A DNA stretch of 64,000 nt from Mangrovimonas sp. ST2L15. Lineage in GTDB: Bacteria; Bacteroidota; Bacteroidia; Flavobacteriales; Flavobacteriaceae. Each line of letters starts with the position of its first letter. Position 1 is the first letter of the stretch. The stretch covers positions 1 to 64,000 of the forward strand of contig NZ_LBIQ01000014.1 of assembly GCF_001280515.1 (NCBI RefSeq), given 5' to 3'. The notes below the pieces were generated by a model that did no database searches, was not told the origin of the DNA, and saw only the letters and a program-made list of their open reading frames with translations. The position numbers and the translations under genes are program-made. Positions 1-49,451 of the stretch are shown in pieces.

Positions 1-3000
1 TGGCATCTGGGTTGGCCGTACAGTCCAGGTCCTTGGTAAGCACGGTGCTCAAGGAAATGGTCGGTAGCGGATCGATGGTCATGGTCTCGCTGTATGTACA
101 CTCATTGGCATCCATCACCTGGAAGGTATAGGTTCCCGGAGCCAGGTCTGGGAACGTATTGGATGTCTGGTATGGGGTAGCTGCCGAAGCAGGAGCTATG
201 ATCTGGTACTGTAGCTCGCCGCTTCCCCCGGTGACACTTGTAATGGTCACATCGGATGAATTTGCAGGACAGGTAATGGCCGTCATATCAAACTCCATAT
301 CGGTAGGAGGGTCCAGGGCATCGATGGTGATGCTTCCCACTGCCAGGGAACATCCACTGGCATCCTGTACGGTGATGGTGTAGGTTCCGGCTGTAAGGCC
401 CGTAAAGGTATTGCCGGACTGGAAGTTGGTCCCGTCGATACTGTATGAATAGGGAGGCGTACCACCCGTTACACCGGTAACTGAAATGGTCCCACTCCCG
501 TTACATGTGTAAGGGGAGGTGAGTTCTAAACTACCTGTAAGTGGTTCACTAGCTGAGATAATAACAGTTTGAGGCTCTGTAAGACACACAGAATCTTCTA
601 TGGAATATTGAACTACAACTTCATAATTTCCTTCAGGAAGGTTATTGAATACAGGTGCATCAAAGAATGTGTTGCCTCCATCGATGCTATATTGAAGTGT
701 ATTGCCATTAGCATTGGTTACTTCTATGGTAATACTACCCGTATCATTACCAGCACAAGCAATATCTGTAGAATTGATTGTGAATTCTGGAGCTTCAATA
801 GCATCAACCACGATAGATGTTTCTGCCTCACAATTGTTAGAGTCGATAACCAAAATGTTATAGGTTCCGGGGCTCGTTACCGTAATTTCTGGATAGGTTT
901 GAAAATCTGTTGTACTATTTACATAATAATAATATGGAGGCGTTCCTCCTTCAGGGTAAATAGTGATTTCCCCGTCGTCACAGGTTAAGGGGCTTGTCAA
1001 TGCAGCAGTTACTGTTAATAATGGCGGTTGAATAATTTCAATTTCTTCTGAATATTCACAGCCATCATCAGTACTTGCTGTTACCGTATATGTACCAGCA
1101 TTTAACGATGTGAAATTATAATCACTATTATTGGTTGGTCCAACGTTATCTATTAATGTACTTCCTTGATAAACATTGAAATAATATTGAGGAAGGGCAT
1201 TATTAACTGCTAAATGAATACTTCCAAAATCTCCATAACAATCTGGTTGCGTTATTTGGGAAGTGACATTAAAATCTCTTTCTTGAATGTGAACACTTGG
1301 TGTTTCAAAAATACAAGGGTTTGTTTCCACACCTACCTGTTGAATGTAGATTGTATAATAACCTGGTGATGTCACGGTGAAAATATTACTTGATTGATAG
1401 TTTACACCATCAATACTGTATTCATATCCACTTGGAACACCATTAACAGTAATGGACCCTGGAGTTTCACATATTATATCTTGAGCAACAGCTGTTGGAT
1501 TTAATAAGTTTTGGTAAACATTAAAGTAGAAGATACTATAACAACCTCCAGGATAGTTAATAATAAGTCTAAATTGACCAGCCGTATTTGCTGTATAGTT
1601 TGGTCCTGTTCCTACTTGGTTCCAGGTACAAGCGTCATTTTCATTGGCGCAATCTTCATTTTCTACAGCAGCACAACTAGACTCATCTAACTGTTCCCAA
1701 ATAATTGAGGCGGCATCACTAATTCCAGTTAAAATTTCTCTGGTATCATTGGCACCACATAAGAAAATATTTGGCAAAAGTTTTCCATCGTTTGGACAGG
1801 TGACTACTTCGTCTGCATAAGGAATAACGGGATTTGTTTGGGTTTCACCGTATAATACCACTGTTATCACTTCTTCAATTGATAAACAAGTAGCATCAGT
1901 TGTATTGGTTACATAATAAGTTCCTGTTTCAGTGGCTGTATATGTTTGACCCGTACCAATAACTGGGGAGCCAGAAGGACTTGTAGACCAAGAATAGGTG
2001 TCATAACCATCAGCAGCAACTAGATTGACACTGTCCCCACAAAGGACTTCTTGTCTTTCGAAGTTACAGTTTGAAATATCCACTAAAAAGTTGGTTGGCT
2101 GAGGAACGCCAAAACATTCTTCTTCAGTATAACTTCCTTCATCACTTACCGAAATACCACTTATAGCACCCGTATAATCTCCAAATGCTTGATTGGAAAT
2201 CTCATTGGAGCAGGCCTGACTTAAATCATAACAATTAGGCACTACTTGAACCGCAATACGAATAACAAATACTGGGTCACCGAATTCTACCGATTCATCT
2301 GGGATGGAGAAAACAATGGTATTTGTTGCAGGATCATAAGATTGAAGTGTTGCACCCCCTGCATTACTTAAATCTAGATCTGTAGCTGGATCAAAAATGA
2401 TGTTATCAGGTAATACATCTGTAATAGTAAAGTTTGTTACATCTTCATTACCCGTATTTTGGTATGTTATTTCGTAAAATAAATTTTGACCTAGAATCAC
2501 ATTATCTCCGTTGATTTCAGTTCCAAATTCATCTTCGACTGTTTTAATCAAAGTGATTTCTGGTGAAATAATATCTACAGCAAAGGCACTAAAAAATGAA
2601 AATAATGGATCGGCTTGTCCTTGTGCAACTTGTAAAGTAAAAGAAGCAGATGTATCACTATGGTTAATGTATTCTGGTTCAGAGTTCAAGACAGTTAAAT
2701 ATCCTGTATCGTAACCTAAGGTATTGGTCCCTGAAGGATTTCGAGGAAGAACTACACCATTATCATTTTCAATTACCGCTCCAAAAAACTTATTAGCTGG
2801 TCTTAAAGGAGTTGTAACCTCTTTGTTGTTGATTTCCAGTTTTGTAGCTCTTTTTGTTTTGTCGCCATCTAAAACGGCATAGGCAAATTGTAAATCGATA
2901 TGTCCCGCAGGAGGTGTTGTAAAACCTGACACAGGAATTTCTTCATAGTGGTCGTCATAAATATGGCTAAATCCATCAAAAGTGGTGAAGGATTTCATAT

Positions 3001-3652
3001 GTAAAGCTTGATCTTCATAAATTACAAACAAAGTCCAACCAGCCGATAATCCTGTAGAATTATTAAATCCTTCACTTGAAATTACATTGGCAACTGTATA
3101 AGATCCTTCAATGTCTGTCAACGAATTTAATAGATCTGTTACATCAGCATAGCAAGCATAGGGTGTGTTTCCTGGTTCATCATCTTCAGAAATAATAGGT
3201 TCCACTATCGCATCATAGATGAGTTCTCCTGTTATGTCTGTATATGTAGAGCTTCCCGGTGTTTTAAATTTAACTGTATGAATATTTGATCTATCTCCAG
3301 CTTGGAGCATAGCTCCCCAGTATAAACCAGCGTAAGCAACCGAGTAACATTCTGTAGCTGAGCCATCTTCATGTACGGGTAAAACGATATCTGCACTACT
3401 GGAACTGAAGGTTGAAGCATCTGAATCGATATCTATGTATTGCATATCGACATCTTGGTTATCTATGGAATTGTCATTTCCGGGTTGGTTATCAACACCC
3501 AAAATGTTATTTCCAATAACCAGCATGCTACCTTTAGTTTCAATTTGTTCCCTTATTGTAAAAGGCTCATATGTTTGGGCCATTCCTTTCGCGAAAAGGA
3601 AAAGCACAAAGAGAGGGAATAGCACCTGTTTGTAATAAGTAGGCTTTTTCAT
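1..3652 (-). CDS. SprB-repeat giant surface adhesin, N-terminal 1217 codons (truncated by window edge)
   Basis: An open frame runs from an ATG at 3652 to the left edge without a stop, so the C-terminus is missing here. Residues 1-25 are a signal peptide ending GMAQ. About residues 30-350 are a beta-rich exported region. A DUF11-like domain follows at about 360-475 (YEITYQNTGNEDVTNFTITD, VLPDNIIF). After that come Ig/PKD-like segments. From about residue 720 to the edge are SprB-type repeats with the recurring pattern GTPPYSYSIDG ... F..L..GTYTITV.D..GC. Such proteins are exported by the type IX secretion system and serve as gliding or attachment adhesins; a type B sorting domain is expected beyond the edge. 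It is last in a minus-strand cluster, 62 bases after the PorP/SprF gene, the usual pairing for an SprB-class cargo. The far-left repeats are much richer in G+C than the rest. The family assignment is firm; the ligand is unknown. Confidence 0.9.
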   Translation of the reverse strand, partial: MKKPTYYKQVLFPLFVLFLFAKGMAQTYEPFTIREQIETKGSMLVIGNNILGVDNQPGNDNSIDNQDVDMQYIDIDSDASTFSSSSADIVLPVHEDGSATECYSVAYAGLYWGAMLQAGDRSNIHTVKFKTPGSSTYTDITGELIYDAIVEPIISEDDEPGNTPYACYADVTDLLNSLTDIEGSYTVANVISSEGFNNSTGLSAGWTLFVIYEDQALHMKSFTTFDGFSHIYDDHYEEIPVSGFTTPPAGHIDLQFAYAVLDGDKTKRATKLEINNKEVTTPLRPANKFFGAVIENDNGVVLPRNPSGTNTLGYDTGYLTVLNSEPEYINHSDTSASFTLQVAQGQADPLFSFFSAFAVDIISPEITLIKTVEDEFGTEINGDNVILGQNLFYEITYQNTGNEDVTNFTITDVLPDNIIFDPATDLDLSNAGGATLQSYDPATNTIVFSIPDESVEFGDPVFVIRIAVQVVPNCYDLSQACSNEISNQAFGDYTGAISGISVSDEGSYTEEECFGVPQPTNFLVDISNCNFERQEVLCGDSVNLVAADGYDTYSWSTSPSGSPVIGTGQTYTATETGTYYVTNTTDATCLSIEEVITVVLYGETQTNPVIPYADEVVTCPNDGKLLPNIFLCGANDTREILTGISDAASIIWEQLDESSCAAVENEDCANENDACTWNQVGTGPNYTANTAGQFRLIINYPGGCYSIFYFNVYQNLLNPTAVAQDIICETPGSITVNGVPSGYEYSIDGVNYQSSNIFTVTSPGYYTIYIQQVGVETNPCIFETPSVHIQERDFNVTSQITQPDCYGDFGSIHLAVNNALPQYYFNVYQGSTLIDNVGPTNNSDYNFTSLNAGTYTVTASTDDGCEYSEEIEIIQPPLLTVTAALTSPLTCDDGEITIYPEGGTPPYYYYVNSTTDFQTYPEITVTSPGTYNILVIDSNNCEAETSIVVDAIEAPEFTINSTDIACAGNDTGSITIEVTNANGNTLQYSIDGGNTFFDAPVFNNLPEGNYEVVVQYSIEDSVCLTEPQTVIISASEPLTGSLELTSPYTCNGSGTISVTGVTGGTPPYSYSIDGTNFQSGNTFTGLTAGTYTITVQDASGCSLAVGSITIDALDPPTDMEFDMTAITCPANSSDVTITSVTGGSGELQYQIIAPASAATPYQTSNTFPDLAPGTYTFQVMDANECTYSETMTIDPLPTISLSTVLTKDLDCTANPDA

Positions 3653-18844: not shown

Positions 18845-18848
18845 CCGC

Positions 18849-19160
18849 AAGTAAATCGCCTTATCGCTCAGTTTTCTGGGAGGAAAGTCCGAACACCGTA
18901 GTGCAAACATAGTGGTTAATAGCCACCGGCCGAGAGGTTAGGAAAAGTGCAACAGAAAGAATGTACAGGTCATGCTGTAGTGAAATCAGGTAAACTCTAT
19001 GTGGTGCAATGCCATGTATACCATCGTTTGAGGGCGGCACGTTCAATGTTGGAGGGTAGGCAGCTAAAGTTTATTGGTAACAATAGATTCAGATAAATGA
19101 TAAGGCACTTTCATAAGATTTCTTATGATATGTGACAGAATTCGGCTTATAGATTTGCTT
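18849..19160 (+). ncRNA. rnpB: RNase P RNA, class A
   Basis: Catalytic RNA that trims the 5' leaders of tRNA precursors. The conserved 5' core GGAGGAAAGTCCGAACACC starts at 18879. The other hallmark boxes are GAGGTTAGGAAAAGTGCAAC, GAAATCAGGTAAACTC and the 3' core ACAGAATTCGGCTTATAGAT. The ends are set by the P1 helix: 18849-18857 (AAGTAAATC) pairs with 19152-19160 (GATTTGCTT) with one G-U pair. The length of about 312 bases is compact. A -7 box immediately precedes it and a strong terminator follows. The minus-strand frame across this region is a shadow. Confidence 0.95.
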
Positions 19161-19166
19161 GAAACT

Positions 19167-42949: not shown

Positions 42950-44245
42950 CTAAATATCACTCAAAAACCTCTTCAAATCATCATAAGTTGAAATCTCAAT
43001 AGATCGTTTCTTTTTGCTCATCACTTTTAAAATTTGTTTTGGTAATTCAATGTTTTCTTGAATAGTATCTTCTACCACGTCCAAAAACTTGGTGGGATGT
43101 GCCGTTTCTAAAAATACACAATGGGCATCTGGGTGCGATTTCAAATAATCTTTGCACGCTAAATATCCAATAGCACCATGTGGGTCGGCTATATAAGAAT
43201 ATTCGTTATATAGCTCTTTAATACCTTCAATGGTTTCATCATCTGTATAGCTAAATCCGGATAAATTCTTTGCAAGGGTATCATAATTCTTATTATAGAG
43301 CTCTTGTATACGAACAAAGTTACTGGGATCACCCACGTCCATAGCGTTACTAATGGTTTGTACAGATGGTTTTGGATTGTAGTTTTTAGTCTCTAGATAA
43401 TCGGTTACTACTTTGTTAGCATTATTGGCTGCTACAAAATGTTTGATAGGTAGACCCAATTTTTGAGCCATCATTCCAGCGCAAATATTTCCAAAATTTC
43501 CGCTAGGAACCACAAAAGTCAGGTTTTCATAAGTTTTGTAAAGTGCTTTGTATGCAAACATAAAATAAAACATCTGTGGCAACCATCTGGCTACATTAAT
43601 TGAGTTGGCAGAGGTTAATTGCTTTTTGCTTATTAATTCTTCATCTAAAAAGGCACGCTTAACCATAGCTTGACAATCATCAAAAGTACCATGTACCTCA
43701 AGGGCAGTGATGTTTTTTTTAAGGGTTGTTAATTGTTTTTCTTGAATATCACTCACCTTTCCACTGGGATAAAGAATCACTACTTTCACGCCTTCTACAC
43801 CCAAAAACCCGTGAGCCACAGCTCCACCAGTATCACCAGAAGTAGCTACTAGTACCGTTACTTCCTTATCATTTGATTGATTGAAATACCCGAGACAACG
43901 AGCCATAAAACGTGCCCCCACATCTTTAAAGGCCATGGTTGGACCATGAAAAAGTTCCAATGAATAAATCTGGTCAGTTATTTTTTCAACCGGAAATTCA
44001 AATGATAAGGTTTCTTCAATAATCTGCTTAAGAACATCTTCTGGAATGTCTGGTGTAGCAAATTGTTTGATTGCCTCAAAAGCAATTTCTGCTTCTGAAA
44101 GCTGATCAAGACTTTCAAAAAATGAATCGGGTAGTGGTGATATACTTTCTGGGAAATAAAGTCCTTTATCTGGCGCCAATCCTTTTATTACAGCATCCTT
44201 GAAGCTTGTTTTAGAGGCTTTATGATTGAGTGAGTAGTAGTTCAT
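42950..44245 (-). CDS. thrC: Threonine synthase
   Basis: The 431-residue PLP enzyme makes threonine from O-phosphohomoserine. It has YYSLNHKASKTSFKDAVIKG at the N-terminus, the PLP-lysine motif HGPTMAFKDVGARFMARCLG, and TLVATSGDTGGAVAHGFLG-like (VLVATSGDTGGAVAHGF). The first codon adjoins the thrB stop directly. It is the last gene of the thr operon; no strong terminator is visible in the 35-base gap to the convergent TPR gene. Confidence 0.96.
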   Translation of the reverse strand: MNYYSLNHKASKTSFKDAVIKGLAPDKGLYFPESISPLPDSFFESLDQLSEAEIAFEAIKQFATPDIPEDVLKQIIEETLSFEFPVEKITDQIYSLELFHGPTMAFKDVGARFMARCLGYFNQSNDKEVTVLVATSGDTGGAVAHGFLGVEGVKVVILYPSGKVSDIQEKQLTTLKKNITALEVHGTFDDCQAMVKRAFLDEELISKKQLTSANSINVARWLPQMFYFMFAYKALYKTYENLTFVVPSGNFGNICAGMMAQKLGLPIKHFVAANNANKVVTDYLETKNYNPKPSVQTISNAMDVGDPSNFVRIQELYNKNYDTLAKNLSGFSYTDDETIEGIKELYNEYSYIADPHGAIGYLACKDYLKSHPDAHCVFLETAHPTKFLDVVEDTIQENIELPKQILKVMSKKKRSIEISTYDDLKRFLSDI

Positions 44246-45166
44246 TTACAATATTTTTATTCCATTTGGATTAATTCGTGATACATAGAGATTAAATTCG
44301 ATACCAGTTTGGCCATATACACTCTTAAAGGCTGCAGCTACTTTATGAGCCGTTTCTTCGCCTTTGTTTAAACTGAAAATAGAAGGTCCCGAACCAGAAA
44401 TACCAACACCTAAAGCGCCTGCTTCCAATGCCGCTTTCTTTGCATTATCAAAATAGGGAATGAGTTGTTTACGAAATGGTTCAACCACAACATCCTTAAG
44501 TGCAGAACTAATTAGTTCGTAATCAGAGATATGCAAGCCATGGACTAAACTGCCCACGTTTGCCCATTGGGTAATGGCATTTTGTAGGACTATTTCCTTG
44601 GGCAAAATAGCTCTTGCCTCTGAAGTTTTTATTTCTATCTGAGGGTGAACAATCGTGGCATACATGTCATGGGGTGTAGGTAATTCAAGAATTTCCAATG
44701 GATGTGTGCTCTTTACCAAAGTAAAGCCGCCAAAAATCCCAGGGGCAATATTGTCGGCATGTTCACTGCCACTTGCCACCGCTTCTCCCTTCATGGCAAA
44801 GAAGGACAATTGTGTTTTATTAAATGGCCTTCCTAAGAGTTCGTTCATGGCAAACACCACACCCGATGCACTAGCAGAGCTGCTTCCTACACCACTTCCA
44901 GGCTTGATGTTTTTATAGATTTCAATTTCAAAACCAAAGTCAACCTCTACTTTTTCTAGAAGAGCTAATGCTGCAACTCCAGCTACATTTCTTTTGGTTT
45001 CCATGGGTAGGTCATAACCTTCTATCTTAGAAATTGAAATGTCTTTATTTGCAGTTTTTCTAACAACCATTTCATCACCAACAGTATCCAAACAAAACCC
45101 CAAGACATCAAATCCACAAGCAACATTGGCTACGGTAGCGGGAGAAAATATTTTTATCTCATCCAT
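44246..45166 (-). CDS. thrB: Homoserine kinase
   Basis: The 306-residue GHMP kinase has IKIFSPATVANVACGFDVLG at the N-terminus, the phosphate-binding loop IKPGSGVGSSSASASGVVFA, and the C-terminal GALGVGISGSGPSIFSL. It phosphorylates homoserine with ATP. It begins 3 bases after thrA and abuts thrC, fully within the operon. Confidence 0.96.
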   Translation of the reverse strand: MDEIKIFSPATVANVACGFDVLGFCLDTVGDEMVVRKTANKDISISKIEGYDLPMETKRNVAGVAALALLEKVEVDFGFEIEIYKNIKPGSGVGSSSASASGVVFAMNELLGRPFNKTQLSFFAMKGEAVASGSEHADNIAPGIFGGFTLVKSTHPLEILELPTPHDMYATIVHPQIEIKTSEARAILPKEIVLQNAITQWANVGSLVHGLHISDYELISSALKDVVVEPFRKQLIPYFDNAKKAALEAGALGVGISGSGPSIFSLNKGEETAHKVAAAFKSVYGQTGIEFNLYVSRINPNGIKIL

Positions 45167-45169
45167 ATC

Positions 45170-47614
45170 CTAGTCATTTCCTATTCTAATGATATCTGCA
45201 AAAAGACCTGAGGCCGTAACATCGGCACCAGCGCCAGCCCCTTTAATAATCATAGGTTGATCTGCATAACGTTGTGTATAGAACATCACAATATTGTCTT
45301 TTCCTTCCAAATTATAAAAAGGATGTCCCATAGGAATCTCTTTCAGTCCCACCTTGGCTTTTCCTTCATTAAATTCGGCTACATATTTTAATTTAGAGCC
45401 TTTTTCTTGAGCTTCTGCATATAGATTTTGGAAATGAGCTTCATCATCTATAAGTGTTTGATAAAAATCATCTACAGTATCACTGCTTAAATTAGATTCA
45501 GTTAAAAAGGATTCATTCTCAATATCTTCAAGTTCCATGATGGTGCCTGATTCTCTGGCCAAAATAAGTATTTTACGAGCTACATCAACTCCGCTTAAAT
45601 CAATTCTAGGGTCGGGTTCTGTATAGCCTTCTGCTTGGGCTTGTTTCACCACATCGTGAAACTTGGTTTGGTTGTTAAAATTATTAAACACAAAATTTAA
45701 ACTACCAGACAGAACAGCTTGGATAGAGGTGATTTTATCACCTGAAGCTATTAAATTATTTAAAGTATCAATAACCGGCAGACCAGCACCTACATTTGTT
45801 TCAAATAGGAATGGGGCATTATATTTTCGTGATAAAAATTTTAATTGTGCATAGTTTGCAAAATTACTTGAGCACGCAATTTTATTACAGGCAACCACAG
45901 CGATACTTTCTCGTAAATAGGCGTCATAGAGGTTGGCCACATCTTTATTGGCGGTTACATCAACAAAAATGCTATTTCTTAGGTTGAATACCTTGGCTTT
46001 AAAGAAGAAACCATCTAGTGAAGCAGGCTCACCGACTTTTAATTGTTCTTTCCAATTTTTGAGGGAGATACCTTCGTCATTAAAAATCATTTTACGAGAA
46101 TTTGATAAACCAATGACACGCAAATTAATTTTAAGGGTTTCCTTAAGGTATTTTTTTTGTTGATGAATTTGTTCAACCAATCTTTCTCCCACATTACCAA
46201 CGCCAGTAATAAAGACATTGAGCTGTTTTGTTTTGGATTCAAAAAATACCTCGTGCAAAGAATTTAAGGCCTTTTTGACGTCTCTTTCAGCAATTACAGC
46301 AGAAATATTTTTCTCTGATGCTCCTTGGGCAATGGCTCTTACATTGATATTATTACGACCTAAGGTACTGAACATTTTGCCACTAATCCCTTGGTGATTC
46401 TTCATGTTGTCTCCAACTAATGCTACAATGGCCAAATCTTCTTCAACCAGAATAGGGTTGATCTTATTTAGAGATATTTCATATTCAAAGGTTTGATCAA
46501 TCACTTCCTGAGCTAGTTGAGAGTCAGAGGCATTAATTCCAAAGCAAATGGAATGCTCTGACGATGCTTGGGTTATAAAAATGATATTGATTTTATGATT
46601 TGCCAATGCTTCAAACAACCTCTTTGAAAAACCAGGAATACCAACCATGCCACTTCCTTCAAGGGTTAACAGGGCTATATTATTGATGTTACTAATTCCT
46701 CTTACTGTAAGTCCGTTTACTCCATAATTATTTGAAATAAACGTACCGGTTGCTTTGGGATCCATGGTGTTTTTAATCACCAAAGGAATGTTTTTGCTCA
46801 ATACAGGTTGAACGGTTGGTGGATATAACACCTTGGCTCCAAAGTGAGATAGTTCCATAGCTTCCTGATAGGATAATTTTTCAATGGGGTAAGCTTGTTT
46901 TACCAATTTGGGATTGGCTGTAAACATACCACTTACATCTGTCCATATTTCCAAACGTTCTACTTCTAAGGCAGCAGCCAATAATGCAGCAGTGAAATCA
47001 GATCCACCACGACCTAACGTTGTAATTTCTCCTGCTTCAGATTTGGAGATAAAACCTGGTAATATAGTGATGTCTTGATTATTGGACTTAAAATAACTTT
47101 TTATATAATTGAACGTGAGGTCATATTTCACCTCGGCTTTTGTGAATTGAGAATCTGTAATTATGAGTTCTTGACTGTTTTTCCTGACAGCATTCAATCC
47201 TCTTTCTTTCATCGCTTCTGCAATAATAAAAGAGGAGAGGAGCTCTCCAAAACTCACTAATTTATCAGAGGTTTTAGGAGATAATTCATTTATTAAATAG
47301 ATGCCATCCAAAAGACTTTTCAAGCGGTTCAATTTCTTTTCCAACGCCTCCAATGTTGGTTTGGGGCAGTTTGGAATTAAATTAGATAAAATATTTAAGT
47401 GAATACTCTTAATCTCTTCAAATTCAGAAATATAAGATTCGTCTTTTATTTGGGCTAAATAGCCAGATTTTAATAATTTATCGGTGATGCCTCCTACGGC
47501 TGAGACAACGGCTATCACTTTATTTTCTTCGGAATATTCCTTTAAAATACCTATGACTTGATTGATATTTTCAACAGAACCTACAGATGTTCCTCCAAAC
47601 TTTAAAACGTTCAT
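45170..47614 (-). CDS. thrA: Bifunctional aspartate kinase / homoserine dehydrogenase I
   Basis: The 814-residue fusion has the aspartate kinase domain (about 1-285: VLKFGGTSVGSVENINQVIG, LGRGGSDFTAALLAAALEVE), two ACT domains (about 310-460: NNIALLTLEGSGMVGIPGFS, AIVALVGDNMKNHQGISGKM), and homoserine dehydrogenase (about 465-814: VFITGVGNVGERLVEQIHQQ, DPRIDLSGVDVARKILILAR). It catalyses the first and third steps of threonine synthesis, and the ACT domains are expected to confer threonine feedback. About 76 bases separate its start from the leader peptide stop, which places it under probable attenuation control. Confidence 0.97.
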   Translation of the reverse strand: MNVLKFGGTSVGSVENINQVIGILKEYSEENKVIAVVSAVGGITDKLLKSGYLAQIKDESYISEFEEIKSIHLNILSNLIPNCPKPTLEALEKKLNRLKSLLDGIYLINELSPKTSDKLVSFGELLSSFIIAEAMKERGLNAVRKNSQELIITDSQFTKAEVKYDLTFNYIKSYFKSNNQDITILPGFISKSEAGEITTLGRGGSDFTAALLAAALEVERLEIWTDVSGMFTANPKLVKQAYPIEKLSYQEAMELSHFGAKVLYPPTVQPVLSKNIPLVIKNTMDPKATGTFISNNYGVNGLTVRGISNINNIALLTLEGSGMVGIPGFSKRLFEALANHKINIIFITQASSEHSICFGINASDSQLAQEVIDQTFEYEISLNKINPILVEEDLAIVALVGDNMKNHQGISGKMFSTLGRNNINVRAIAQGASEKNISAVIAERDVKKALNSLHEVFFESKTKQLNVFITGVGNVGERLVEQIHQQKKYLKETLKINLRVIGLSNSRKMIFNDEGISLKNWKEQLKVGEPASLDGFFFKAKVFNLRNSIFVDVTANKDVANLYDAYLRESIAVVACNKIACSSNFANYAQLKFLSRKYNAPFLFETNVGAGLPVIDTLNNLIASGDKITSIQAVLSGSLNFVFNNFNNQTKFHDVVKQAQAEGYTEPDPRIDLSGVDVARKILILARESGTIMELEDIENESFLTESNLSSDTVDDFYQTLIDDEAHFQNLYAEAQEKGSKLKYVAEFNEGKAKVGLKEIPMGHPFYNLEGKDNIVMFYTQRYADQPMIIKGAGAGADVTASGLFADIIRIGND

Positions 47615-47651
47615 TGTAATTTAATTTAAGTATAAAAATCTTTTGATTTTC

Positions 47652-47668
47652 GTGTTTTATAAAAACAC
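47652..47668 (-). promoter_or_regulatory. Downstream leader hairpin of the thr operon
   Basis: The inverted repeat GTGTTTT / AAAACAC with a 3-base loop lies between the leader peptide stop and thrA. It is followed on the minus strand by an A/T-rich stretch. It is a weak candidate for the terminator half of an attenuator; the stem has few G-C pairs. Confidence 0.35.
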
Positions 47669-47690
47669 TAATAGGACGGAGAGAATATAA

Positions 47691-47807
47691 TTAATAACAA
47701 CCCAAACGGGTTGTAATAATTGTAGTAATAGTTCCAAAAATAGCAGCAGTTCCACTAATAGAATTAGCAGTTATTGCGCTGATATTATTTGTAAACTTGT
47801 CTATCAT
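47691..47807 (-). CDS. thrL: thr operon leader peptide (38 aa)
   Basis: An open frame of 38 codons on the minus strand, too short for the usual cutoff, starts with ATG at 47807 and stops with TAA at 47691-47693, 76 bases before thrA. It reads MIDKFTNNISAIT through SGTAAIFGTITTIITT and ends RLGCY. The segment TITTIITT gives eight consecutive Thr or Ile codons (four Thr, four Ile in the nine codons after the last Gly counting TITTIITT), as in the E. coli thrL peptide, where shortage of these charged tRNAs stalls the ribosome. A stable hairpin overlaps the codons just after this run. A -7 box sits immediately upstream. The position, strand and composition all fit an attenuator; it has not been tested. 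Confidence 0.82.
   Translation of the reverse strand: MIDKFTNNISAITANSISGTAAIFGTITTIITTRLGCY
47697..47714 (-). promoter_or_regulatory. Attenuator hairpin at the end of the thr leader peptide
   Basis: The perfect 7-bp stem ACAACCC / GGGTTGT with a 4-base loop covers the last Thr-Thr-Arg-Leu-Gly-Cys codons of the leader peptide. A ribosome stalled on the Thr/Ile run would block it; a ribosome reading through would reach the stop just beyond it. It could thus be the switchable element of the attenuator. Confidence 0.65.
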
Positions 47808-47814
47808 TACATAT

Positions 47815-47822
47815 CAAATGTA
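47815..47822 (-). promoter_or_regulatory. Promoter -7 box for the thr leader
   Basis: The minus strand reads TACATTTG, with TTTG 23 bases further upstream. The ATG of the leader peptide is only 8 bases after the box, so the transcript would begin at or just before the start codon, close to leaderless. Confidence 0.65.
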
Positions 47823-47900
47823 TTATTTTTACCTTAATAAAAAAACAAATCCGAGCTTTTTACGGAAAAAGCAGAAAACCTATTAAGTTTTTAACAAAAA

Positions 47901-49451
47901 ATGAAAATATTATCCAAAGAACAAGTATATGAAGGTGATCGAATAACCGCTGAAAAACAGCAGATTTCCTCAACTGAATTGATGGAGCGTGCGGCTACCC
48001 AAATTTTCAATTGGATTCATCTGAGAATGCAAGGAGCACAAGTGCCAATCCATGTTTTTTGTGGCATAGGGAATAATGGAGGTGACGGTTTAGTACTTGC
48101 CAGACACTTGATTAATCATGGGTATCAGGTTCATACGTATGTGGTGAATTATAGTGATAAACGATCAAAGGATTTTTTGATTAACTATGATCGCATCAAG
48201 CAAGCCACTAAAGATTGGCCTGTGTTGTTGGACGATTCTAAAGATTTACCCGACATTAATGTCAAAGACATCATTGTTGATGCCGTGTTTGGAATTGGCT
48301 TAAATCGTCCAGCAGATGAATGGGTTCAAAAGTTATTTCAGCATTTTAGGAATTCGGGAGCATTTACGCTTTCAATTGATATTCCTTCTGGATTATATAC
48401 AAATCAAGTTCCAAAAGATGAAAATAGCGTTGTATGGGCCAATTATACCTTGACTTTCCAAACTCCAAAATTGGTATTCTTTTTACCCGAAACAGCGAAG
48501 TATACTAAAGAATGGGAGGTTTTGGATATTGGAATCGATCCCGAATATCTTTATAAATTAGAAACCGAAGCAGAACTCATAGGGAAATATGAAATGCTTT
48601 CTGTTTACCAACCTAGGGATAAGTTTTCACATAAAGGAAACTATGGTCATGCGTTGGTTATTGGTGGAAGTCATGGCAAAATGGGAGCAGTCACTCTAAG
48701 TACTAAGGCAGCTTTAATTGTAGGGGCAGGATTAGTAAGTGCTTTCATTCCAAATGGAGGTTATCAGGTTTTGCAAACAACGTTCCCTGAAGCTATGGTA
48801 TTAACGGATGAGGATGATTGGAAAATTTCAAATATCGAATTTGGTTTCGAACCCACTGTCATTGGATTGGGTATGGGAATGGGGAATCATGAAAATACCT
48901 TAGCAGCTTTTGAGCAATTTTTGAAAACAAACAAGGCTCCTTTGGTAATTGATGCGGATGGCCTCAACTTACTGGCAAAAAAGAAAACTCTGTTAAAATT
49001 GTTACCCGAATTAACCGTTTTAACACCTCACTCTAAAGAGTTAGAGCGGTTAGTAGGAAGCTGGAATGATGATTTTGAGAAGCTCAATAAAGTCAAGAAG
49101 TTTTCTAAGAAAAATCATGTGGTTGTAGTTATCAAAGGAGCCAACACCATAACTGTTTTTAAGAATCGAATGTACGTCAATACAACTGGTAATCCTGGAT
49201 TGGCAACTGCAGGTAGCGGTGATGTATTGACAGGTATGATCACTGGATTAATATCACAAGGGTATGATCCTATATCAGCAGCTGTTTTCGGAGTTTATTT
49301 ACATGGGAAATCAGCTGATATTCAAGTTGAAAAATATGGATATCAAGCTTTAATAGCCAGTCATGTGATTGAAGGTATTGGAGCAGCCTATTTGGATTTG
49401 TTTGCAAAACCAGAAGAACCTGTGCTTGAAGAAGAACCAAATGAAGCTTAA
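47901..49451 (+). CDS. nnr: Bifunctional NAD(P)H-hydrate epimerase / ADP-dependent dehydratase
   Basis: The 516-residue fusion repairs damaged NADHX and NADPHX. The N-terminal YjeF_N epimerase domain (1-210) has VFCGIGNNGGDGLVLARHLI and SIDIPSGLY. The C-terminal dehydratase (about 225-500) has FSHKGNYGHALVIGGSHGKM and GNPGLATAGSGDVLTGMITG, the ribokinase-like active site. A short acidic tail follows (KPEEPVLEEEPNEA). It is transcribed divergently from the thr leader across a gap of 93 bases and ended by a strong terminator. Confidence 0.96.
   Translation: MKILSKEQVYEGDRITAEKQQISSTELMERAATQIFNWIHLRMQGAQVPIHVFCGIGNNGGDGLVLARHLINHGYQVHTYVVNYSDKRSKDFLINYDRIKQATKDWPVLLDDSKDLPDINVKDIIVDAVFGIGLNRPADEWVQKLFQHFRNSGAFTLSIDIPSGLYTNQVPKDENSVVWANYTLTFQTPKLVFFLPETAKYTKEWEVLDIGIDPEYLYKLETEAELIGKYEMLSVYQPRDKFSHKGNYGHALVIGGSHGKMGAVTLSTKAALIVGAGLVSAFIPNGGYQVLQTTFPEAMVLTDEDDWKISNIEFGFEPTVIGLGMGMGNHENTLAAFEQFLKTNKAPLVIDADGLNLLAKKKTLLKLLPELTVLTPHSKELERLVGSWNDDFEKLNKVKKFSKKNHVVVVIKGANTITVFKNRMYVNTTGNPGLATAGSGDVLTGMITGLISQGYDPISAAVFGVYLHGKSADIQVEKYGYQALIASHVIEGIGAAYLDLFAKPEEPVLEEEPNEA

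Follow-up and report, generated by a model that had tools for sequence, protein, structure and literature searches.

The threonine operon of Mangrovimonas sp. ST2L15 (thrA, thrB and thrC) lies on the minus strand of the stretch of 64,000 nucleotides analysed here, which is referred to as the window. Directly upstream of thrA, the same strand carries a short leader ORF with a run of threonine and isoleucine codons and a hairpin (hairpin 1) at its end. The features, in the direction of transcription, are:

47815..47822, minus strand: -7 promoter box TACATTTG (consensus TAnnTTTG), 7 bases 5' of the leader ATG
47691..47807, minus strand: leader ORF, 38 codons with ATG start, MIDKFTNNISAITANSISGTAAIFGTITTIITTRLGCY
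47709..47732, minus strand: control codons TITTIITT, the last codon (ACC) inside the 5' arm of hairpin 1
47697..47714, minus strand: hairpin 1, ACAACCCGTTTGGGTTGT (ACAACCC-GTTT-GGGTTGT, 7 bp), within the ORF, 3 nt before its stop codon
47674..47696, minus strand: G-poor spacer TATTAATTATATTCTCTCCGTCC, then a C-rich tract; ATAT at 47688-47685, 8 nt beyond the base of hairpin 1
47652..47668, minus strand: hairpin 2, GTGTTTT-TAT-AAAACAC, no U-tract after it
45170..47614, minus strand: thrA, bifunctional aspartate kinase / homoserine dehydrogenase (NF006959)
44246..45166, minus strand: thrB, homoserine kinase (TIGR00191)
42950..44245, minus strand: thrC, threonine synthase (TIGR00260)

Read on the minus strand, the box TACATTTG is followed by 7 bases, the ATG (47807) and the 38-codon ORF, which encodes a peptide with the C-terminal end TITTIITTRLGCY and closes with GTITTIITTRLGCY; the ORF ends 3' of hairpin 1 with TAT TAA. 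The distance to the thrA start (47614) is 76 bases from the stop codon and 82 bases from the base of hairpin 1, and on its opposite flank the leader is bordered by a divergent NAD(P)H-hydrate repair gene. An earlier inspection of the same letters (the sequence-only reading) had described a 38-codon frame with TITTIITT upstream of thrA on the same strand, a 7-bp hairpin at 47697-47714 inside its last codons and a Bacteroidota -7 box ending 7 bases before its ATG; all three are indeed present, the box at 47822-47815. The 24-base string from the hairpin to the stop codon occurs only once in the genome, and the leader RNA of the window is more stably folded than shuffled sequences (z -2.88). As in leader-peptide attenuators, a short ORF with a cognate codon run thus stands immediately 5' of a biosynthetic operon, and an RNA structure is located where a ribosome on the control codons would alter it, i.e., a hairpin at the leader stop codon whose 5' arm includes the last Thr codon. 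An intrinsic terminator ahead of the first gene, which is a further mark of such attenuators, was not found.

For the comparison with other genomes, f1 denotes the family of the window, f2 a family of the same order, f4 and f8 families of the same class and f21 a family of the same phylum. The thrA search matched 97 of 120 genomes of f1, and 89 upstream regions represent this family (the window and L003-L090; L002 is the window itself and was replaced by the window sequence). Duplicates whose last 230 or 250 nt agreed completely were discarded ahead of all counts, and the profiles were calculated for 88 representatives, each below 70% identity. The alignment set contained 67 sequences (5 of 72 loci were left out), 34 of which are in alignment A1, which mixes hairpin registers; alignment A2 holds 33 of 53. 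Three partial matches (L331, L332, L358) and three f8 places without a locus were left unread.

Of 184 distinct regions upstream of thrA, 146 contain a hairpin of the CCC/GGG pattern (family, 71 of 89; 80 named relatives, 57 of 68 distinct regions; first phylum set, 18 of 27). In a second, more distant phylum set the pattern was found in 2 of 40 regions, and both of these matches look like chance. The background, determined in his and ilv loci, is 9 occurrences per 141,129 bases (0.019 per 300 nt). Note that the hairpin pattern sets the choice of loci, so that conservation within the pattern is partly by construction. The presence of the leader and hairpin before thrA is not due to chance. A test free of arm sequence, i.e., a Thr/Ile-rich ORF with a hairpin at its stop codon, revealed the module in f1 (106 of 167 regions), f4 (24 of 28), f8 (15 of 32), f21 (9 of 28) and the single f2 region (1 of 1), and in none of the 37 regions of other groups, which include L206 and L216 from f4 and f21 genomes. 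A hairpin with a score of at least 9 is located at the stop codon of 155 of the 161 Thr/Ile-rich leader ORFs in these five families and of none of the five elsewhere. When an ATG start and no fewer than 4 Thr/Ile per 12 codons were demanded, as a more stringent screen, 131 of 224 regions were retained. Furthermore, 25 genomes were scanned with model R1, which stands for one hairpin class, with 150 of the 450-3155 first-look candidates per genome being scored. Five of them, including that of the window, gave a single match, which was the thr leader; this is a weak indication that the module does not recur elsewhere in the genome.

The codon run is bound to the reading frame: of the eight codons ending at the hairpin ACC, on average 5.5 are Thr/Ile in this frame, compared with 0.35 and 0.10 when the other two are read (n=147). 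In the 88 representatives, the fraction of Thr+Ile is 0.30 at codon -10, 0.61 at -6 and 0.84 at -1, and lies between 0.56 and 0.84 over codons -6 to -1, whereas the ACC at codon 0 follows from the way in which these representatives were chosen. The sequence-only reading had depended on the frame, the Thr/Ile run and the hairpin being conserved among Flavobacteriaceae, and all three are kept in relatives well beyond this family; some lineages are without the leader (e.g., L026, L027, L032, L033 and others, in which it is missing without an IlvA context). The recurrence of the arrangement in distant relatives of the phylum probably marks an old, undescribed starvation switch.

Hairpin 1 is conserved as a structure over five families, with compensatory changes. 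For 71 distinct pairs of arms, 96.1% of the first five pairs are standard, vs 64.6 ± 2.4% if the 3' arms are swapped among loci; the choice of hairpins demanded at least four pairs, and hence the four loop-proximal pairs are standard by search. These four pairs are seen in CG, GC, AU, UA and GU forms. The outer arms match their own partner better than swapped ones (p 0.0005). In the five families, mean hairpin scores are 12.6-16.7 vs 0.7-1.8 in shuffled stretches searched identically, with hairpin 1 chosen as the best candidate close to the stop codon and a score of at least 9 needed for real loci. The arms are exchanged (ACGGG..CCCGT, with GGG in the 5' arm) in 14 of 15 f8 loci, and 4 of 24 f4 loci have the arms ATCCGC..GCGGAT. 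The stop codon lies inside the hairpin loop in 22 of 24 f4, 14 of 15 f8 and 9 of 9 f21 loci but only in 16 of 106 f1 loci; in f1 leaders, it mostly follows the 3' arm. In many loci, the part of the leader ORF that precedes the codon run contains a weak, variable extra hairpin, ~30-65 nt 5' of hairpin 1.

The second conserved element is a short motif after the hairpin. Of 155 loci, 124 have ATAT in the interval 5-14 nt past the stem base, mostly 7-11 nt from the stem; for six other intervals, the count is only 1-11 of 155. Its context is CATAT in f4, f8 and f21 and is more variable, often TATAT, in f1. CATAT/ATAT is kept as a sequence, ~8 nt after hairpin 1. In f8, the motif is retained in 11 of 15 loci despite the exchanged hairpin arms, and therefore does not act by pairing with the hairpin. 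The spacer after hairpin 1 is unstructured and has a G content of 3-7%; 63 of the 88 representatives have no G at all at +9..+20.

The promoter is not among the conserved parts, as a TAnnTTTG-like box is rare in f4 (3 of 24 loci), f8 (2 of 15) and f21 (1 of 9), with 75 of 106 loci in f1. Of the 88 representatives, 77 have such a box at most 40 nt 5' of the leader ATG, with a spacing of 0-30 nt, whereas only 15 of 175 control windows have one. The nearly leaderless transcript proposed previously holds for the window with its 7 bases but is not a general trait, the spacing being mostly 16-22 nt in these 77 representatives. A second TAnnTTTG box, 21-28 nt after hairpin 1, is present in one clade (23 of 106 f1 loci, and two more with the box further away; e.g., by eye, L010, L011, L013, L014, L019 and L024) and could be a second promoter overlapping hairpin 2. 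The window has no TAnnTTTG between the hairpin and thrA.

The leader carries no strong terminator, as had been noted from the letters alone, and in this it does differ from the his leaders found in the window's own genome and in relatives. In 47400-48000, the sole terminator-like site is hairpin 1 with its poor tail, TATTAATTAT. By a search for a stem plus U-tract, 16 of 17 his loci have a strong terminator (scores 23.5-35.5), but only 1 of 155 thr hairpin loci does (L063). Altogether 4 of these 155 scored at least 21: the terminator of L063 is real, and at the remaining three, all in f4, the site is hairpin 1 itself with its poor tail; 25 further loci of the 155 have weak terminators. Hairpin 2 is rejected as a terminator, since it lacks a U-tract. 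Its region is more structured than shuffled sequences in f1, f8 and f21 (mean z -1.65, -1.22 and -1.61, respectively) and not in f4 (mean z 0.19). Within the window's own genome, the his leader (L242, LHHHHFH...) is canonical with a scored U-tract terminator, and the ilv leader (L264, IISIIIVVII...) has a U-tract terminator recognized by eye.

Ordinary attenuators replace the module at several loci of the family and of distant groups (L063, L072, L204, L206, L210, L212, L213, L215, L222; terminators by search, leader peptides judged by eye). L063 and L072 belong to the family of the window, and their thr attenuator is of the canonical type, complete with U-tract terminator. At ten other loci (L042, L044, L046, L052, L197-L200, L287, L289), the end of an IlvA-like gene (IlvA confirmed for L197) lies just 5' of thrA and no thr leader is present, which fits co-transcription with a differently controlled operon. 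These ten loci come from 155 rows without the hairpin, which also hold duplicates of module loci and sub-threshold loci; the IlvA-like motif was found in none of the 155 hairpin loci (420-500 nt upstream).

The existence of a thr leader is thus well supported, and given the codon run, the operon and the hairpin, a ribosome-controlled attenuator is much more likely than any other kind of control. On balance, we favour the view that the leader is a ribosome-controlled transcription attenuator of thrABC which senses charged threonine (and isoleucine) tRNA. The transcript would begin near the leader ATG and encode a short peptide whose Thr/Ile run leads into hairpin 1. If threonyl-tRNA is short, the ribosome would stall on the last codons of the run and cover the 5' arm; hairpin 1 would be prevented, and RNA polymerase would proceed into thrABC. 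With ample threonyl-tRNA, the ribosome would finish and depart, and hairpin 1 would form ~11-14 nt behind the end of CATAT, where the polymerase is predicted to pause; the ribosome-free, C-rich and G-poor RNA downstream would then permit termination, most likely with Rho. Expression on starvation implies that hairpin 1 must be the OFF structure. The pause is read at CATAT because the ~11-14 nt between the stem base and the end of the motif come close to the ~11 nt of hairpin-stabilised pauses. Note that control codons 5-7 codons before the hairpin would, when stalled on, leave the 5' arm uncovered and would count against the attenuator reading. Points against it are also the loss of the leader, or a canonical attenuator in its place, in several lineages, the 38 of 40 regions of the second phylum set that lack the hairpin pattern, the unsupported hairpin 2 in f4 and the rarity of the -7 box in f4, f8 and f21.

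We infer a termination step that does without an intrinsic terminator. As there is no U-tract, the end of transcription needs another agent, and for the same reason this agent is most likely Rho. The rho gene is present in the genome (TIGR00767, 648 bits). After the hairpin, the C/G ratio is 3.9 at +8..+22, 1.7 at +22..+45 and 2.8 at +45..+70, with C accounting for only 16-24% and hairpin 2 interrupting the stretch. In the 80 nt before thrA, it is 1.77 for the 88 module loci vs 0.90 for a control of 26 loci without the hairpin pattern, from which 14 doubtful loci had been left out by hand; in his leaders, C and G are equal (n=16), and the codon run itself is C-biased too (C/G 2.7). The bias of C over G is weak evidence for Rho. 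The Rho-dependent mechanism suggested in the sequence-only reading fits this bias and the presence of Rho, and Rho would be the probable factor rather than an observed one.

Hairpin 1 could also be a weak intrinsic terminator, with the mixed A/U spacer serving as a poor U-tract and stalled ribosomes blocking its formation. It is the only terminator-like site in 47400-48000, its 7-bp stem is followed by 13 A/U bases, and the three f4 hairpins mentioned above pass the terminator score with their own tails. However, the tract is interspersed with A (and in other loci also with C), whereas his leaders in these genomes have proper T-tracts. The conserved ATAT, mostly 7-11 nt after the stem, would lie at or past the point where intrinsic terminators release RNA. 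We consider this explanation unlikely.

A classical attenuator with three structures would work differently: coverage of the 5' arm would free the GGG(G) run to pair with a YYCC tract 14-23 nt downstream (antiterminator), and otherwise hairpin 2 would terminate. Classical attenuators do exist in relatives (e.g., L072), and folds computed with a stalled ribosome for 62 of the 88 representatives give a pairing of 0.199 between the G-run and +18..+23, compared with 0.024 for shuffled sequences. Over all partners, however, the G-run is barely more paired than in shuffles (0.867 vs 0.851), and in a swap test own partners of the G-run and YYCC tract pair worse than swapped ones (z +2.75). In f8, moreover, the 3' arm is CCC and unable to pair with the CC-rich motif, which is still there in 11 of 15 loci, and the supposed terminator, hairpin 2, has no U-tract. 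The GGG:YYCC antiterminator, good in folds, is therefore not supported, as it failed the swap test and is impossible in f8; neither for the G-run and the tract nor for the other named pairings was an alternative antiterminator found. The other swap tests gave p 0.05 for the G-run with the hairpin 2 region, p 0.05 for the motif with the leader 5' sequence and p 0.98 for the G-run with the leader 5' sequence. This scheme seems quite improbable to us.

The leader might instead set the access of ribosomes to the thrA start. Bacteroidota initiate translation without Shine-Dalgarno sequences, and the leader is mostly at a modest distance from thrA (median 86 nt in f1), which would suit such translational control. 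In f1, however, the distance from hairpin to thrA start varies between 58 and 279 nt with the module intact, which argues for control before, and not at, the thrA start, and from +68 toward thrA there is little structure beyond that in shuffles (mean z -0.26, n=40). The alternative of mRNA access, raised earlier beside Rho, is thus less likely in view of the same range of distances, and we regard translational control as very unlikely. Finally, a chance ORF next to an internal thrA promoter, for which the TAnnTTTG box after the hairpin in one clade could be quoted, is hardly credible, since the frame, hairpin and motif are conserved over several families and the window lacks such a box between the hairpin and thrA.

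The favoured ribosome-controlled attenuator resembles enterobacterial thrL in having a short peptide with a Thr/Ile run directly 5' of thrABC and a structured RNA overlapping the coding end. Unlike thrL, the leader described here has neither a U-tract terminator nor a supported 2:3 antiterminator; instead, its stop codon is in or next to one strong hairpin, with a conserved CATAT/ATAT downstream. The his and ilv leaders of the window's genome and its relatives are likewise leader peptides with cognate codon runs (His, Ile/Val), but they carry U-tract terminators (16 of 17 his loci; for ilv, L264 by eye), which the thr module does not. TnaC and mgtL are Rho-dependent leader-peptide attenuators, and the likeness to them is that translation of the leader would decide the access of Rho to ribosome-free, C-rich RNA, provided that Rho acts here. 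To our knowledge, a conserved hairpin with a fixed distance to a motif is not part of the tnaC and mgtL systems. In the hairpin-stabilised pauses of the E. coli his and trp leaders, the hairpin is ~11-12 nt behind the RNA 3' end. The thr module has a hairpin at a similar spacing, which also overlaps the coding end of the leader; unlike in these pauses, a conserved sequence (CATAT) marks the putative pause site.

It is possible, albeit with less than even confidence, that much of the Bacteroidota uses a distinct kind of threonine attenuation without an intrinsic terminator or antiterminator. A single hairpin at the leader stop codon would act on a polymerase held at CATAT ~8 nt further on, and the leader ribosome, stalled or released, would decide between escape and factor-dependent termination; the hairpin would evolve by compensatory change, with the pause motif remaining fixed. 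Such an attenuator, which seems to operate without a terminator, could reveal how transcription and translation are coupled in bacteria that begin protein synthesis without Shine-Dalgarno sequences. The fixed distance between hairpin and motif predicts a polymerase pause site, for which his leaders in these genomes provide built-in controls.

The enterobacterial thr operon leader is presumably the family Thr_leader in Rfam (RF00506). For the leader described here, Rfam gave no match at gathering score in the window and none at E ≤ 10 in 47560-47900, the thr leader model included. The module points to an old cis-regulatory RNA common to distant Bacteroidota and absent from Rfam 15. The open literature that we searched contains no description of the thr leader module. 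The closest account concerns F. psychrophilum and presents, in its main text, clues for leader-peptide attenuation before amino-acid operons in general as well as structure in the 5' regions of pheA, hisG and further genes (PMC9723704); thrA and threonine are not mentioned in this main text, and the supplement may list thrA.

Two further observations concern other loci. A second aspartate kinase-homoserine dehydrogenase (L091, G000:C21:226117-228516), before which no thr leader was seen, is a 1133-aa open frame with an alpha/beta-hydrolase part (PF00561) in front and is perhaps a fusion with a homoserine acyltransferase. In the window itself, positions 18848-19165 of the plus strand encode the Bacterial RNase P class A RNA (187 bits).
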